A stretch of DNA of 64,000 nucleotides from Bacillus amyloliquefaciens DSM 7 = ATCC 23350 (GTDB taxonomy: Bacteria > Bacillota > Bacilli > Bacillales > Bacillaceae): assembly GCF_000196735.1 (NCBI RefSeq), contig NC_014551.1, forward strand, positions 562,501 through 626,500, written 5' to 3'. The first letter of the stretch is position 1. The number at the start of each line of letters is the position of its first letter. Below the pieces are notes generated by a model that saw nothing but the letters and a program-made list of their open reading frames with translations, did not search any database and had not been told where the DNA came from. A program made the translations under genes and the position numbers. Positions 38,491-43,350 of this stretch are shown piece by piece.

Positions 38491-39477
38491 ATGACAGTAA
38501 CTAGAGTTCAGGATGTTATCATCCCAGAAATTTTTAACCAATACACAATGAACAATACTGTTGAACAAACAGCGGTATATCGAAGTGGAATTATTCAGCC
38601 TGTACCGGGCTTAATTGTTCCGAGTGGTGGGGATACAGTCAATATGCCTTTTTGGAACGATCTTGAAGGAGATCCAGAGGCGATTCAATCAAACTTTGCA
38701 TTGACTCCAGAAAAAATCAAAGCAGGGAAAGACGTTGCTCGGGTATTCGAATATGGTAAGGCTTGGAGCGCAGAAGATTTAGCGGGAGAGCTTGCGGGAT
38801 CAGATCCAATGAGAGCAATTGGGGATCGTGTCAATTACTATTGGGAAAGACAGTTTCAAAAAATGATCTTCCTTATGTTGGATGGTGTCTTTGGTAGCAA
38901 CATCACTAATAATGATGGCGATCTTGTATTAGATATTTCGAGCGGTGACGGGAAAAAGTACACAACTTACCTATTTGCTGGAGGTGCCGTTGGTTATGCC
39001 CCAGGTATGCCGAAAACACCAACCGAAACAGATCGAAACTCACTAAAAGGTGAGGACATTTTGATCAATCGTAAGAAGTTCATTATGCATCCTCGTGGTT
39101 TCAAATGGACCGAAGCTGATGTTGCTGCTGAAATGCCTACATTCAAAGAATTGGCAAGCGCAAAGAACTATGAACGTGTTTATGACAAAAAGAAAGTCCG
39201 AATTGTGAAGATCATTTCCAATGAAGGACCAGAAGCAGCAACTAAATCAAAATTAAGCGGTGAAGTGATTCTTGATGCAGCTCAATTACTCGGGGATGCT
39301 AAAGGGAAATTCACTTCAATTGCAATGCATTCAGTAACGCATACAAATTTACAGAAACAAAACTTGATTGAGTTCATTCCTAACAACAGGGCTGATGTAG
39401 GTTTTGGAACATACCTTCAAAAGTCCATTATTGTTGATGATTCACTTCCAGTAGATGAGCCTACTCCTACGCCCTAA
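38491..39477 (+). CDS. Major capsid protein
   Basis: A 328-aa shell protein (HK97-fold class by position and pattern). Key segments are MTVTRVQDVIIPEIFNQYTM, GDTVNMPFWNDLEGD (near residue 49), SAEDLAGELAGSDPMRAIGDRVNYYW (near 92-117) and FIMHPRGFKWTE (near 195). The zero frame ends in PTPTP with the sequence ACG-CCC-TAA. A +1 slip on CCC would add the FN3-like domain encoded at 39476-39739. The scaffold precedes it by 12 nt. Confidence 0.93.
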   Translation: MTVTRVQDVIIPEIFNQYTMNNTVEQTAVYRSGIIQPVPGLIVPSGGDTVNMPFWNDLEGDPEAIQSNFALTPEKIKAGKDVARVFEYGKAWSAEDLAGELAGSDPMRAIGDRVNYYWERQFQKMIFLMLDGVFGSNITNNDGDLVLDISSGDGKKYTTYLFAGGAVGYAPGMPKTPTETDRNSLKGEDILINRKKFIMHPRGFKWTEADVAAEMPTFKELASAKNYERVYDKKKVRIVKIISNEGPEAATKSKLSGEVILDAAQLLGDAKGKFTSIAMHSVTHTNLQKQNLIEFIPNNRADVGFGTYLQKSIIVDDSLPVDEPTPTP

Positions 39478-39739
39478 TGCGCCCCAAAATCTACGGTTTA
39501 CAAGCACGAGTAATTCTGTGACTGTCAATTGGGATGCCGTAGCTGGGGCGGATTCATACAATGTTTATCGGGGAGCAGACAAACGTCTTGATAAGAATGT
39601 AACCAAGCCTGAATACAGCACGGACGGTCTAACGCCTGATACTAAGTTAACAATCAATGTCACTTCTGTTAATGAGAGCGGCGAATCTGCAATGTCGGAA
39701 ATCGCAACTAAAACCAATGCAGAGGGAGGCAGCGAATAA
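39476..39739 (+). CDS. FN3/Ig-like extension of the capsid protein, reached by +1 frameshift
   Basis: 87 codons in the +1 frame directly after the capsid stop, reading NAPQNLRFTSTSNSVTVNWD..., an FN3-type fold (VTVNWDAVAGADSYNVYRG; KLTINVTSVNESGES). The frame is open from 39455 and has no start codon with a ribosome site. It begins exactly at CCC-TAA (39472-39477), the motif known for +1 frameshifting in SPP1 gene 17.1. The fusion would be 415 aa and expose the domain on some capsid subunits. Confidence 0.85.
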   Translation, partial: NAPQNLRFTSTSNSVTVNWDAVAGADSYNVYRGADKRLDKNVTKPEYSTDGLTPDTKLTINVTSVNESGESAMSEIATKTNAEGGSE

Positions 39740-39931
39740 ATGGGAGCAACAACCTTTTGGCTCTTGGAACAAGAATTGAAAAGGCGTGCAAACATCGATA
39801 AGGCAGCTCAAGAAAAACTGTCTTATGACGAAATGACTGTCGAGCAACTCAAGCAGGTAGCAAAGGATAAAGGGATCTCAGGTTATTACAACATGAAACG
39901 AGAAACACTTCTCGAAAAATTGAAAGGGTGA
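39740..39931 (+). CDS. Small head protein with Rho-N/SAP-like motif
   Basis: 63 aa. The C-terminal half, TVEQLKQVAKDKGISGYYNMKRETLLEKL, is the helix-extended-helix of Rho N-terminal/SAP-like domains, seen in small YqbF-like proteins between capsid and connector genes. It starts immediately after the FN3 extension stop. Confidence 0.75.
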   Translation: MGATTFWLLEQELKRRANIDKAAQEKLSYDEMTVEQLKQVAKDKGISGYYNMKRETLLEKLKG

Positions 39932-39935
39932 TCCA

Positions 39936-40232
39936 ATGGACATCCAACAAGTGAAACGAATGATAGGGATAACAACCGATAAGCATGACGCTTATTTGTC
40001 TGAGGTTGTCCCTATTTTAATTGAGGTTGCCGCAGACGAATGCAAAAATACTTTTGATCCAAAAGCGCTGCCCGCTGGTGTAAAAATATTTGTTGCGAAA
40101 GCGGCTGAATACAATATGACGCCGTCTGGTCTGTCTGGGAGAAGTATGGGGGATGTGTCATATTCGTATAACACGGAATTCCCGCAACACATTATGAAGA
40201 ATCTGTACCCATACAGAAAGGCATTCCGATGA
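39936..40232 (+). CDS. Head-tail connector (SPP1 gp15-like adaptor)
   Basis: A 98-aa helical protein (MDIQQVKRMIGITTDKHDAYLSEVVPILIEVAADEC...). Its helices and its place directly after the capsid block fit the gp15/gp6 family of adaptors that bind the portal. Overlaps the next gene by 4 nt. Confidence 0.82.
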   Translation: MDIQQVKRMIGITTDKHDAYLSEVVPILIEVAADECKNTFDPKALPAGVKIFVAKAAEYNMTPSGLSGRSMGDVSYSYNTEFPQHIMKNLYPYRKAFR

Positions 40233-40567
40233 TCTATGAAGAATTCCCGCATGTCATAACGTTTCAGCGGTGGGAAGAGGTGCCGGACGGCGGCGGGGGC
40301 TATGTTGAAAAATTCACTGATTATCTCACAACAGAGGCCTTTGTCGGTGGGATTACGTCCCGGGAATATTATCAGGCTCAACAGCTTCAGAATCCGGTTG
40401 ATTGCAATGTGTATTTCCCGTACCGCAATGATATTGAGAAGACAATGCGGATCATCTACGAAAACAAGGTGCTGACTCTCAAATCAGATCCGATCGACCA
40501 GGGCGGCATGCATGAGATTATGAATTTGAAATGTCAGGTAACGGGGGTACTGAAGGGCAATGGCTGA
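40229..40567 (+). CDS. Head closure protein (SPP1 gp16-like stopper)
   Basis: A 112-aa beta-rich protein (FPHVITFQRWEEVPDGGGGYVEKF). The pattern fits head-completion proteins that plug the portal after packaging. Coupled on both sides by short overlaps. Confidence 0.8.
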   Translation: MIYEEFPHVITFQRWEEVPDGGGGYVEKFTDYLTTEAFVGGITSREYYQAQQLQNPVDCNVYFPYRNDIEKTMRIIYENKVLTLKSDPIDQGGMHEIMNLKCQVTGVLKGNG

Positions 40568-40976
40568 GGTGAGCGGAAGATGGGTCAGGCAGATGCAAAG
40601 AGCCACGAGCGAATTCAGAAGCCGGGTCATAGATGATATTAAGCAACTGGTCACAGACACGGCCGAGCTGATTTACAGCCATGCTGTTCTGAATGCTCCG
40701 ACCGCCGCAATAGACGGGGGGAACCTGAAAAATTCAATTGAAATCGACTACCAAGAGGGCGGCTTACGGGCCGTTATTTCTGTTGGTGCCGATTATGCCG
40801 TATATGTGGAATACGGAACAGGGATTTACGCAGAGGAAGGCGGCGGCCGGCAAACGCCGTGGGTTTATTACGACACCAAGCTAAATAGATGGGTAGTCAC
40901 CCGGGGAATGCGGGCGCAGCCGTTCTGGAATCCAGCTGTGGACGAAGGCATGCGGTATTTTGCCAGTCAAATGTGA
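40560..40976 (+). CDS. HK97 gp10-like minor tail/connector protein
   Basis: 138 aa with the HK97-gp10 pattern: ISVGADYAVYVEYGTGIYAEEGGG (about residues 77-100) and GMRAQPFWNPAVDEG (about 119-133). Proteins of this family (SPP1 gp16.1 position) join the head-tail interface. Confidence 0.85.
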   Translation: MAEVSGRWVRQMQRATSEFRSRVIDDIKQLVTDTAELIYSHAVLNAPTAAIDGGNLKNSIEIDYQEGGLRAVISVGADYAVYVEYGTGIYAEEGGGRQTPWVYYDTKLNRWVVTRGMRAQPFWNPAVDEGMRYFASQM

Positions 40977-40994
40977 TAGAAAGGAGCTGTCATC

Positions 40995-41393
40995 ATGCGA
41001 TCTGCCCTGTGGCCGTTGCAGGCTGCTCTATTTAAGAGGTTATCAACAGACGAAGAGCTGGACGGGCGCGTCACGGGCGTCTTTGATGCAGTCCCGAAAG
41101 ATCAGCAAAAGCCTTATGTGACAATGGGCGATGATGATGTATCCCCATTTAAAACCAAGACATCCAGCGGTGAAGAAATCAATGTGGTTTTACACTGCTG
41201 GTCAGGTTACAACGGAAAAAAAGAAGCAATGGAGATTCTGAGCCTCATGCTTCAAGCGTTAACAAGCAGGCCCCTAACAATAGAGGGCTTTTCTTTATGC
41301 CGTTCTGAGATGCGCAGCATGCAGGTGATCACCGATATTGACGGGTACACGCGTCACGGCATTCTCAGAATGCGCTTCACAATAAACAATTGA
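40995..41393 (+). CDS. Tail terminator / tail completion protein (DUF3168)
   Basis: 132 aa: RSALWPLQAALFKRLSTDEEL, VFDAVPKDQQKPYVTMGDD and HCWSGYNGKKEAMEILSLML are typical of the DUF3168/SPP1 gp17 family, which caps the tail tube. Site AAAGGAGC. The tail tube gene follows in 4 nt. Confidence 0.87.
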   Translation: MRSALWPLQAALFKRLSTDEELDGRVTGVFDAVPKDQQKPYVTMGDDDVSPFKTKTSSGEEINVVLHCWSGYNGKKEAMEILSLMLQALTSRPLTIEGFSLCRSEMRSMQVITDIDGYTRHGILRMRFTINN

Positions 41394-41397
41394 GAGG

Positions 41398-41919
41398 ATG
41401 AAAGAAATGCCAGATTTATTAAACGGTAAAGATGAGATTTATTTTGTGCAGCCGATGGATGCAAAAGGGGCAGACGGGCTGTTCATCGCCTTTCAAACAG
41501 AAGGGTCACACACGAAAGAACAGGACACGCTGGATGAGTCCACAAAATCAGGCCGTATTGTCGGTTATGGTACAAAAAATGAAAGCTTTGAGCTGACTTA
41601 TTATGCTGCTGTGACCGATCCGGGGCAGGAAGCGATTGAAAGTGCTTATGATAACGAAAAGGCAATTAAGGTCTGGAAAGTCAATAAAAACAAAAACAAA
41701 AATGATAAGCATGATTCTGTCTTTGGACATGCAATTATTGAAAGTTTGGAATTCAGTCAGCCGCAGGATGGGTTTGTTGAGGTTTCAATAACTCTGCCTG
41801 TGCTCGGGAAAACATTCAAAGGCGAATTGCCGCCACTATCAGATGAAATTTTAGCGATGATTGAATCCTCTGCCGGCGCGACTAAGTTTGAGGAATTCGG
41901 CGGCACGACTACGCCCTAA
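41398..41919 (+). CDS. Major tail (tube) protein
   Basis: A 173-aa tube protein of the SPP1 gp17.1/TP901-1 group: MPDLLNGKDEIYFVQPMDAK, GTKNESFELTYYAAV and LEFSQPQDGFVEVSITLPVLG. The zero frame ends in ACG-CCC-TAA (41911-41919). A +1 slip gives a 258-aa form with one FN3-like domain, and a second slip 85 codons later gives a 343-aa form with two. Confidence 0.92.
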   Translation: MKEMPDLLNGKDEIYFVQPMDAKGADGLFIAFQTEGSHTKEQDTLDESTKSGRIVGYGTKNESFELTYYAAVTDPGQEAIESAYDNEKAIKVWKVNKNKNKNDKHDSVFGHAIIESLEFSQPQDGFVEVSITLPVLGKTFKGELPPLSDEILAMIESSAGATKFEEFGGTTTP

Positions 41920-42175
41920 TGCGCCCCAAAATCTATCGTTCACGGCTACGACTGACAGCGTGACCGTGAAATGGGATGCGGTAGATGGGGCAACTTCATA
42001 TAAGGTATACAGGGGAGCGAGCAAGCAACTGGACGCAAATGTCACAGGCACATCCCACACCTTGACAGGAATTGCGGCCGACACGAAACTGACGGTCAAC
42101 GTCTCTGCTGTGAACGATGCGGGCGAGTCCTCAATGTCTGAGATTGTTACGCAAACACAAGCGGTTACGCCCTAA
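41918..42175 (+). CDS. First FN3/Ig-like extension of the tail tube protein (+1 frame)
   Basis: 85 codons in the +1 frame from CCC-TAA: NAPQNLSFTATTDSVTVKWD..., with VTVKWDAVDGATSYKVYRGA and KLTVNVSAVNDAGES. It is a close relative of the capsid extension at 39476. It ends in a new ACG-CCC-TAA (42167-42175), where a second +1 slip can occur. No start codon with ribosome site is present. Confidence 0.85.
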   Translation, partial: NAPQNLSFTATTDSVTVKWDAVDGATSYKVYRGASKQLDANVTGTSHTLTGIAADTKLTVNVSAVNDAGESSMSEIVTQTQAVTP

Positions 42176-42431
42176 CGTACCCCGCAATATAACTGCGAAA
42201 AGCGCCACTTCAAATCAGGTGAGTTTTTCATGGGATGCGGTGAAAGGGGCGACATCTTACAACATTTACAGATTTTACGCAAAAATAGCGACTGTCTCAA
42301 CGAACTCGTACACGTCGAATCCTAACCTGAAGCCGGATACCGCCTACATTTTTAACGTGTCGGCAGTGAACTCGGCCGGGGAATCGGAACGATCGGCCAA
42401 TTTTACGATACGAACAGAAAAGGAATCATAG
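42174..42431 (+). CDS. Second FN3/Ig-like extension of the tail tube protein (second +1 frame)
   Basis: 85 codons in the third frame, reading NVPRNITAKSATSNQVSFSWD..., with VSFSWDAVKGATSYNIYRF and YIFNVSAVNSAGESERSA. It follows the second CCC-TAA and ends at a TAG at 42429. It is more diverged than the other two cassettes. A hairpin (GGGTCCGGG..CCCGGGCTC, 42430-42452) with six T follows. Confidence 0.8.
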   Translation, partial: NVPRNITAKSATSNQVSFSWDAVKGATSYNIYRFYAKIATVSTNSYTSNPNLKPDTAYIFNVSAVNSAGESERSANFTIRTEKES

Positions 42432-42459
42432 GGTCCGGGCTTCCCGGGCTCTTTTTTAA
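42430..42459 (+). terminator. Hairpin after the tail tube cassette
   Basis: GGGTCCGGGCTTCCCGGGCTCTTTTTT: a GC-rich stem (GTCCGGG/CCCGGGC) with a T-run. It may reduce transcription from the abundant tail tube gene into the chaperone and tape measure genes. Confidence 0.65.
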
Positions 42460-42487
42460 CATACAAAAATAATCGGAGGTTTTATAA

Positions 42488-42994
42488 ATGGCTTACTTAA
42501 CTATCGGAGATAAAGAATACAAATCACGTTGCGACTTTGCTTTTGACAGATTGGCAAACGAAAAATACTCCACTGAGGACGAAAAGGGCAAAGGCGGCAC
42601 AATGAATATTTACATGAGTCTGCTGAATGAAGAGGCTTCCTACCTTTCTGCTTTTTGGGATTGCGCACTTGCTTACTTGAAGAAAGAAAAGCCTTCAACT
42701 GAGGCTATTGAAGAAGCAATCATGAAAATCATTGATGAAGACGAGACAGGCGAGGCAATTGACAAGATGATCAATGAAGCATTCACGACACTGGACTCAG
42801 CGGGTTTTTTCAAAGGTGTGATCCGTCAGCGTTGGAAGATGATGGAGAAGATGAACAAAGGGAAGAAACCGGCTCCGAACGAAACACCGGAAATGGAAGC
42901 GAAACGGTTGGAGGACGAAGAGAACGGCAAGGAAGTCTTGAAGATGATGAAAGAGGCATACAAAGAGAGAACGGGATCGACTACGACCAAATAA
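42488..42994 (+). CDS. Tail assembly chaperone G
   Basis: A 168-aa protein in the gpG position of long-tailed siphoviruses. It is acidic and helical (SLLNEEASYLSAFWDCALAYLKK). The frame that follows in -1 encodes a T-type domain, so a G-T fusion is expected, as in lambda and SPP1. Site ATCGGAGG. Confidence 0.82.
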   Translation: MAYLTIGDKEYKSRCDFAFDRLANEKYSTEDEKGKGGTMNIYMSLLNEEASYLSAFWDCALAYLKKEKPSTEAIEEAIMKIIDEDETGEAIDKMINEAFTTLDSAGFFKGVIRQRWKMMEKMNKGKKPAPNETPEMEAKRLEDEENGKEVLKMMKEAYKERTGSTTTK

Positions 42995-43350
42995 TTACGA
43001 ACTCCGCACATTGGCTCGGGGTTTATGATGTGGATTTAATCATGTCATGGACTCCTAACGAGTACAAGCTTCTGCTCAAAGGGGCCAAGTTGCGAAAAAT
43101 AGATGAATTGGAGCTTATGGCAAGAAACGCCATGTTTCACCGTTACGCCATGAATGAGAAGCGCCCCAAAGAAACGAAAATGTTTGATGCAAAGAAGGCC
43201 AGACGTCAATTGGAGCGCAATATCACTGGCGATAACGACAAATGGCGCAAGTCAGATGTAAACGAGCTTGGCAAACGAGCCAAAGGGGTTCAGCGGTTTA
43301 ATGATGCAATCCGCAACCACTTTTCAAAATCCGGACAAGGAATGGGGTGA
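42958..43350 (+). CDS. Tail assembly chaperone T domain (-1 frame of G)
   Basis: About 130 codons in the -1 frame relative to G, with DYDQIITNSAHWLGVYDVDLIMSWTPNEYKLLL as the conserved T region. There is no suitable start with a ribosome site, so it is probably read by -1 (or +2) frameshift near the G stop. I see no canonical X-XXY-YYZ heptamer there. The left boundary given is approximate. Confidence 0.72.
   Translation: MQRENGIDYDQIITNSAHWLGVYDVDLIMSWTPNEYKLLLKGAKLRKIDELELMARNAMFHRYAMNEKRPKETKMFDAKKARRQLERNITGDNDKWRKSDVNELGKRAKGVQRFNDAIRNHFSKSGQGMG

Follow-up and report, generated by a model that had tools for sequence, protein, structure and literature searches.

A prophage tail tube gene of Bacillus amyloliquefaciens followed by two chained CCC-stop/FN3 cassettes that are very probably entered by serial +1 frameshifting

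Single shifts at a CCC-stop that add an Ig-like domain are already known. According to the accessible part of PMC6316719, tails of phage SPP1 contain gp17.1 and gp17.1* in a ratio of about 3:1, and gp17.1* carries an 87-amino acid extension with similarity to FN3, which is reached by a +1 shift at CCCUAA; this shift is described as P-site slippage of tRNA-Pro from CCC to CCU, and no downstream stem is mentioned for SPP1 in that part of the paper. The SPP1 FN3 domain is dispensable, and weak binding of cell-wall carbohydrate has been proposed for it (PMC8718954, in part). In the Listeria phages PSA and A118, a +1 shift takes place at CCC-UGA in the tail gene, and PSA also shifts +1 in its capsid gene, where a stimulatory pseudoknot is found (PMC5009743, in the sections available). 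The same sections describe eukaryotic antizyme, in which the slip occurs before a stop codon and many mRNAs have a pseudoknot 3 nt past the shift site, as well as retroviruses with two -1 frameshifts in series along one translation path. Furthermore, TpeX, the tube protein of 936 lactococcal phages, bears an Ig-like adhesin and gains a second module by frameshifting (PMC6669499), and according to a review the tube proteins of siphophages may carry one Ig-like domain at the C terminus (PMC9022992), both sources again in part. The initial annotation of the DNA studied here named SPP1 and PSA as precedents and knew of no serial case. SPP1 stands as a precedent, with a related tube protein, a CCC-UAA site and one +1 FN3 extension (PMC6316719), and +1 shifting of PSA in both capsid and tail genes is documented (PMC5009743). 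Our literature search agrees on the third point: no serial +1 tube case is described in the literature searched, and the review allows for a single Ig-like domain (PMC9022992, in part).

The window is the whole stretch of DNA analysed, 64,000 nucleotides of the B. amyloliquefaciens DSM 7 chromosome (NC_014551.1), and the locus described here is located in a prophage head-tail gene block within a 3.98-Mb single-contig genome (Table 1). The tube ORF matches the SPP1 gp17.1 chains in PDB entries 5a20, 6yeg and 6yq5 by sequence search (3.5e-37). The arrangement originally read from the letters, in which the tube gene ends in ACG-CCC-TAA, an 85-codon domain follows in the +1 frame and ends in ACG-CCC-TAA, and the +1 frame of that domain in turn holds a second one of 85 codons, is exact in all coordinates and frames, and the FN3/Ig-like nature of both extensions is confirmed by Pfam fn3 matches over the cut-off for each. 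With one more on the capsid gene, the prophage has three CCC-TAA/FN3 cassettes, two tail and one capsid, whose FN3 domains score 47.8, 45.6 and 44.3 bits with PF00041 (cut-off 25). Judged by eye, the likelier tube start is ATG 41407, 9 nt after GAGAGG, rather than ATG 41398. The forms of 173, 258 and 343 amino acid residues proposed at the outset are right in their frames and extensions and have to be corrected at the tube start, giving 170, 255 and 340 residues from ATG 41407; the predicted masses, counted from ATG 41398, are 19.0, 27.8 and 37.1 kDa.

Table 1. Position of the tube gene, the capsid gene and their cassettes in the window.
Feature	Position	Strand	Remarks
Major capsid protein ORF, ending ACG-CCC-TAA (third shift site 39472-39477)	38491..39477	+	Gp13-like Pfam match below cut-off
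Capsid shift site and RNA stem	39472..39550	+	R1 87.4 bits; 14/15 pairs
Capsid-cassette FN3, 87 codons and stop	39476..39739	+	+1 frame; Pfam fn3
Tail tube protein ORF	41398..41919	+	Phage_tail_2 match 2.8e-19; SPP1 gp17.1 relative
Shift site 1, ACG-CCC-TAA	41911..41919	+	CCC in 31/31 distinct cassette pairs
FN3 domain 1, 85 codons (41918-42172) and stop 42173-42175	41918..42175	+	+1 frame of tube; Pfam fn3 E 1.6e-12
RNA stem 1, 5' arms 41922-41928 (first base unpaired here) and 41932-41939	41922..41992	+	14/15 pairs
RNA stem 1, 3' arms 41978-41985 and 41986-41992	41922..41992	+	R1 match 41914-41992, 92.1 bits
Shift site 2, ACG-CCC-TAA	42167..42175	+	Ends domain 1
FN3 domain 2, 85 codons (42174-42428) and TAG 42429-42431	42174..42431	+	+1 frame of domain 1; Pfam fn3 E 8e-12
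Diverged weak stem 2, CCCC/GGGG kept	42178..42251	+	9/15 site-1-structure pairs; R1 42170-42251, 30.9 bits
Terminator-like hairpin, directly after domain 2	42430..42452	+	2 in region vs 1.4 expected: weak

A terminator is likewise annotated in PSA and A118, at the position equivalent to the hairpin behind domain 2. A TAC_12 tail assembly chaperone ORF (42488-43350) is overlapped by a longer ORF in the -1 frame; the overlap is probably the usual G/GT-type frameshift, and relatives annotate the joined product.

The frame of FN3 is +1 at both sites. Stop readthrough, which gives 11 codons at stop 1 and 49 at stop 2, and a -1 shift, which gives 15 codons at site 1 and 6 at site 2, do not reach the FN3 frame and were rejected. 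The hexamer CCCTAA itself is no rarity (14 matches in the window versus 21.8 expected), and the non-random aspect of these sites is their position, frame and conservation. Both extensions had been said to lack a start codon with a ribosome site, and no start codon with a good Shine-Dalgarno common to the chains was found at either cassette boundary in 37 rows (32 distinct chains), a negative without a working positive control: the control of the scan, ATG 41398 and its equivalents and not the likelier 41407, gave no match at 33 of 37, and its remaining matches were of 3 nt, at places that are partly not start codons. A single Pro tRNA, with anticodon UGG, was found among the 150 of 195 tRNA candidates scored, and a targeted pattern for a GGG-anticodon tRNA-Pro gave the UGG tRNA and one place that ARAGORN does not call a tRNA; as far as seen, CCC is decoded by tRNA-Pro(UGG) alone. 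In 13 structural ORFs, 20 of 210 Pro codons are CCC, a count that includes the codons of both sites.

Relatives were taken from genome contigs, viral contigs (80 of 90 viral loci retained by the tube search) and phage records, 157 loci in all, of which 146 had a tube match; these gave 99 rows and, after merging repeats, 92 distinct sequences. Within the genus, the tube was found in 14 of 44 genomes and the double chain in six of them, the window's genome included. The 92 distinct tube loci comprise 32 with two cassettes, 38 with one and 22 with none; the 38 include two loci with a broken domain 2 and L155, whose '+1 extension' of 62 codons was judged spurious and counted as no cassette. Related phages with the same chained CCC-stop cassettes, sought as a check on the initial annotation, were thus found as 32 distinct chains, the window included, which hold 31 distinct cassette pairs; among the named hosts of those on genome contigs are Bacillus nakamurai, B. 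atrophaeus and Bacillus sp. ISL-51. All 32 chains show CCC-stop at both sites, part of them having been found by a scan that requires it; site 1 is always CCC-TAA, whereas 18 chains have CCC-TAA and 14 have CCC-TGA at site 2. An intact domain 2 in the doubly shifted frame was confirmed by homology in 37 of 37 rows. CCC-TAG is found at four single-cassette relatives (L250, L251, L293 and L297), and thus all three stops occur. In addition, closely similar FN3 cassette pairs (L048 and L035) sit behind tubes about 73% identical to that of the window, which suggests that the two-cassette block moves as a unit.

The association of CCC with a cassette was counted without the loci found solely by the CCC-stop pattern scan and without the cut-off locus L149, and rests on related sequences that are not independent. 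At site 1, CCC and a cassette are present in 68 distinct loci, neither in 22, and there are no mixed cases. At site 2 of those 68 loci, CCC and domain 2 are present in 31, neither in 35, domain 2 without CCC in none, and CCC with a broken domain 2 in two, L050 by an internal stop and L103 by a frame break. Six distinct relatives have the 85-codon domain 1 without domain 2, and their site 2 is GCC, TCC, TCT or ACC; in four of them a short remnant of the domain-2 end, RTNKE, survives out of frame. The remaining 29 'neither' loci, each with one cassette of a different type, are less informative. L129, one of the 22 loci with neither at site 1, was misfiled there because a break in the tube frame ends its ORF early; L055 is the same contig, which further on has CCC-TAA and both cassettes, so that a broken tube frame stands ahead of intact cassettes. 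The broken domain 2 in two relatives and the broken tube frame of L129/L055 are as expected for dispensable parts or decaying prophages.

In the phage collection, domain 2 is matched by 17 records at one place each, the best being 035JT001 at 63% and the rest below 50%, and the chain is not annotated in the eight phage records inspected around domain-2-like matches. Phage 035JT001 (L019:4991-5252) shows a single domain-2-like FN3 in +1 after GCT-TAA, without CCC, and its match to R1, a covariance model of the RNA stem described below, is just 12 bits. FN3 entry was classified at 143 distinct places, gathered by searches with these domains and hence no unbiased census: 138 are at a CCC-stop, two are in frame and three are otherwise. 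A further +1 extension after CCC is found at 30 of the 143 places, filed as chains of tube domain 1 and domain 2, and at seven more FN3 places a long +1 frame opens behind a codon other than CCC. Six pattern matches (L025, L029, L041, L044, L049 and L053) with a spacing other than 270 and no tube were discarded as chance-like. The capsid-side CCC-stop cassette occurs in four of the 30 double-chain rows with enough upstream sequence (the window included, and the rows including repeats), so that the three-cassette layout is a minority; the double-chain genome G036, whose stretch is too short for that count, also has a capsid-side cassette.

In the predicted frames, pooled pairwise counts over the 31 cassette pairs put dN/dS at 0.127 (domain 1) and 0.125 (domain 2), versus 1.39, 2.76, 2.42 and 2.03 in the other frames; the value for the tube was set aside, the stretch having been taken without alignment across indels. 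Variable columns at codon positions 1, 2 and 3 number 20, 8 and 51 in domain 1, and 24, 20 and 67 in domain 2. The low dN/dS in the predicted frames indicates that both domains are, or until lately were, translated there, and a pseudogene reading was rejected on the values of both domains. The proposal of two +1 shifts in series is supported by frame-specific purifying selection, by the CCC-stop in 32 of 32 chains and by the non-CCC codons in the six relatives without domain 2. Since 32 distinct chains keep it and both frames are under selection, the double chain is, as judged by comparing sequences, real and conserved and not an artefact.

Downstream of the stop lies an RNA stem made up of a GCCCC/GGGGC helix and, next to it, a second one, TCTAYNG/CNGTAGA. 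It begins 2-3 nt past the stop in first-tail and capsid cassettes. Synonymous variation across the 31 cassette pairs is 0.01 in the first ten codons of domain 1 versus 0.07 to 0.38 in later bins, and 0.26 in the first bin of domain 2. Folding of the 70 nt past the site, compared with mononucleotide shuffles in 15 of the 31 pairs, gave a mean z of -4.4 at site 1 and -0.6 at site 2. The stem was surveyed in 127 distinct CCC-stop FN3 cassettes: 73 belong to the first tail, 32 to the second and 22 to the capsid class, filed by upstream ORF length, by which cut stretches may be misfiled (the L129 row looks capsid). The Pro codon near the start is CCC in 124 of 124 motif-bearing cassettes, compared with 25 of 265 other Pro codons, and the Gly codon of the VxGA motif is GGG in all 124, compared with 74 of 423 other Gly codons. 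GGG is not exclusive to these cassettes: L019 and L242, with FN3s not entered at a CCC-stop, have Gly GGG, and Pro CCG and CCA.

Thinning retained 36 of the 92 non-second-cassette regions, 26 of which are in alignment A5. In A5, 89.7% of the pair cells are standard pairs, versus 85.4% when shuffled and 35 to 57% in slid versions, and the covariation score of 0.147 (0.072 shuffled) was reached by none of 500 shuffles. Four pairs are changed on both sides, a weak excess that was equalled in 36 of 500 shuffles, and further pair types are not above shuffles in A5 (424 of 500). The 36 sequences form on average 13.56 of the 15 pairs versus 8.56 in protein-preserving recodings (sd 0.28; the top of 400 sets was 9.33), and the second cassettes (n=32) form 8-9 of 15. 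Compared with synonymous recoding, folding-energy z has a mean of -2.75 in first-tail cassettes (21 of 27 below -2), -2.33 in capsid cassettes (four of eight below -2) and -1.42 in second cassettes (one of eight below -2), with mid-cassette controls at 0.16, -0.32 and 0.12. Of all pairs, the most informative is that between codon 7, at its middle base, where a change alters the amino acid, and an Ala wobble base 43 nt off: among 70 cassettes, it is C-G in 45, G-C in 15, A-T in eight and of another state in two, although these states sit in few lineages and the independent changes are therefore fewer than the counts. The first-tail and capsid stems are paired beyond what the protein requires.

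Seven loci were listed as in-frame controls, and three of them gave a match (L121, at its tail cassette and not at the in-frame one, L019 and L242); the in-frame controls for the stem finally number just two. One is the capsid FN3 of L121, entered at ACT-ATA-CCT-AAC without a stop (L121:2235-2354), which forms 10 of 15 pairs and whose motif Gly codon is no longer GGG, and the other is phage SIOphi, with 7 of 15 pairs. L154, a one-cassette relative that we take to be SPP1, partly from its tube, forms 12 of 15 pairs.

R1 was built without second cassettes, and its matches in the window, starting at 41914, 39472 and 42170, decrease in score in that order (Table 1). At E 0.001 it matches three places in the whole 3.98-Mb chromosome, all of them CCC-TAA/FN3 sites, in a search that scored 11 of 637 first-look candidates; the capsid place is a training row, the site-1 place is a near-copy of one, and the site-2 match is independent of training, yet shares FN3 coding similarity. 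Under stricter filters, six of 397 genomes match across the order, in three of 135 genera, and three of 398 across the class, all in this genus. The two of these six that lie outside the genus (L369:1501-1582 and L370:1501-1585) show a CCC-stop, an open FN3-like +1 frame and a related stem, and one of these cassettes follows a gene open for 413 codons upstream. The Rfam 15 families give no match up to E 1 in 39300-42600, and the PSA and A118 records, searched over their first 14 kb, contain no match to the R1 stem. No comparable stem is described in the literature searched, whose scope stops short of the primary SPP1 and PSA papers, and within it the RNA element appears undescribed.

Taken together, we consider it very probable, from comparative sequence evidence, that two recoding cassettes lie behind the tube gene and are used by serial SPP1-type +1 frameshifting. 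At each site, the ribosome would pause while peptidyl-tRNA-Pro(UGG) sits on CCC and the A site holds a stop codon that is read slowly; some of the time, this tRNA would re-pair one base downstream on CCU, and translation would resume at AAN in the +1 frame, adding an FN3 domain. The 3' stem may stimulate the shift, by analogy with the 3' pseudoknot of antizyme. Site 2 probably shifts less often than site 1, because its stem is eroded. Virions would then carry tube subunits of about 19, 28 and 37 kDa, with FN3 domains that may stick out from the tail and contribute to weak attachment to the cell surface. Graded amounts of the three forms, and the rule that the last is set by the product of the shift rates, would follow from such a scheme: as illustrative arithmetic, a shift of 25% at both sites, the rate suggested by the 3:1 ratio of SPP1, would give about 75, 19 and 6% of the zero-, one- and two-domain forms, and the eroded site-2 stem suggests less of the two-domain form than 6%. 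With somewhat more confidence than doubt, we also propose that CCC and stop, a stem within the first 25 FN3 codons and the FN3 domain make up a portable, stackable cassette.

Among the other readings of the chain, the one in which just the first shift is used and domain 2 is an untranslated relic kept alongside draws on the weak site-2 stem and on the loss or breakage of domain 2 in several relatives. Purifying selection on domain 2 is, however, as strong as on domain 1 and frame-specific, and the site-2 CCC-stop is kept in 32 of 32 intact chains versus none of the six relatives in which the 85-codon domain 1 stands without domain 2, which leaves this reading improbable. Still less probable is that the FN3 domains are separate proteins made from internal starts or by re-initiation past the stop. 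Annotators called such ORFs genes in Ray17, 035JT001 and A118, and an ATG overlaps stop 1 in the window (TAATG), but this ATG is in the wrong frame; the in-frame starts common to all 37 rows lie inside the FN3 fold, with a Shine-Dalgarno match of at most 3 nt, no start has a match longer than 5 nt, a length reached in one row, and a free FN3 would be without a part for tail attachment. As for an error of sequencing or assembly, or an in-frame fusion that has decayed, which a single genome by itself could not exclude, the retention of both stops in 32 distinct chains and the selection on the frames make it scarcely credible.

A different objection concerns the stem and not the frames. The conserved nucleotides past the stop might be a block of homology for recombination between cassettes rather than a frameshift stimulator, since they are common to tail and capsid cassettes and the closely similar pairs behind diverged tubes show that exchange happens. 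On the other hand, the distant 3' arm is conserved as a complement, with compensatory changes, the silent Ala wobble base follows the middle base of codon 7, and fewer pairs are formed by the FN3s of L121 and SIOphi, which are in frame. We regard the homology block as unlikely, though less so than any of the alternatives to serial shifting.

If true, this would be, within the literature searched, the first serial programmed +1 frameshifting that grades repeated surface domains on one virion protein, kept moreover in many phages, and tail and capsid of one virion would bear set fractions of zero-, one- and two-domain subunits. A cassette could follow a capsid or a tube gene and be chained, each addition dividing the product amounts again. 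With the RNA stem there is a concrete candidate explanation for why shifting at CCC-stop might be efficient in these phages, the two unequal sites of a single gene amount to a natural experiment on the determinants of +1 efficiency in bacteria, and the module could serve protein display at set ratios.

Compared with the known systems, antizyme resembles the window in its slip codon before a stop and in a 3' structure that is similarly placed. It belongs to other genes and hosts, with one shift per gene and regulation by polyamines. Retroviruses share two serial shifts with the window but use the -1 direction, and their products are enzymes and not repeated surface domains. In TpeX of the 936 phages, unlike the window, the first module is in frame and there is just one frameshift. 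The Listeria phages PSA and A118 differ from the window in that no series is described for them in the available sections of PMC5009743 and that their first 14 kb show no match to the R1 stem. SPP1 is like the window in its related tube protein, in the CCC-stop that ends the tube gene and in the FN3 in +1; it has one cassette, whereas the window has two in series and one on the capsid gene. With two extensions in series in 32 distinct chains, the locus is thus a variant of the SPP1 type and not a plain member of it.
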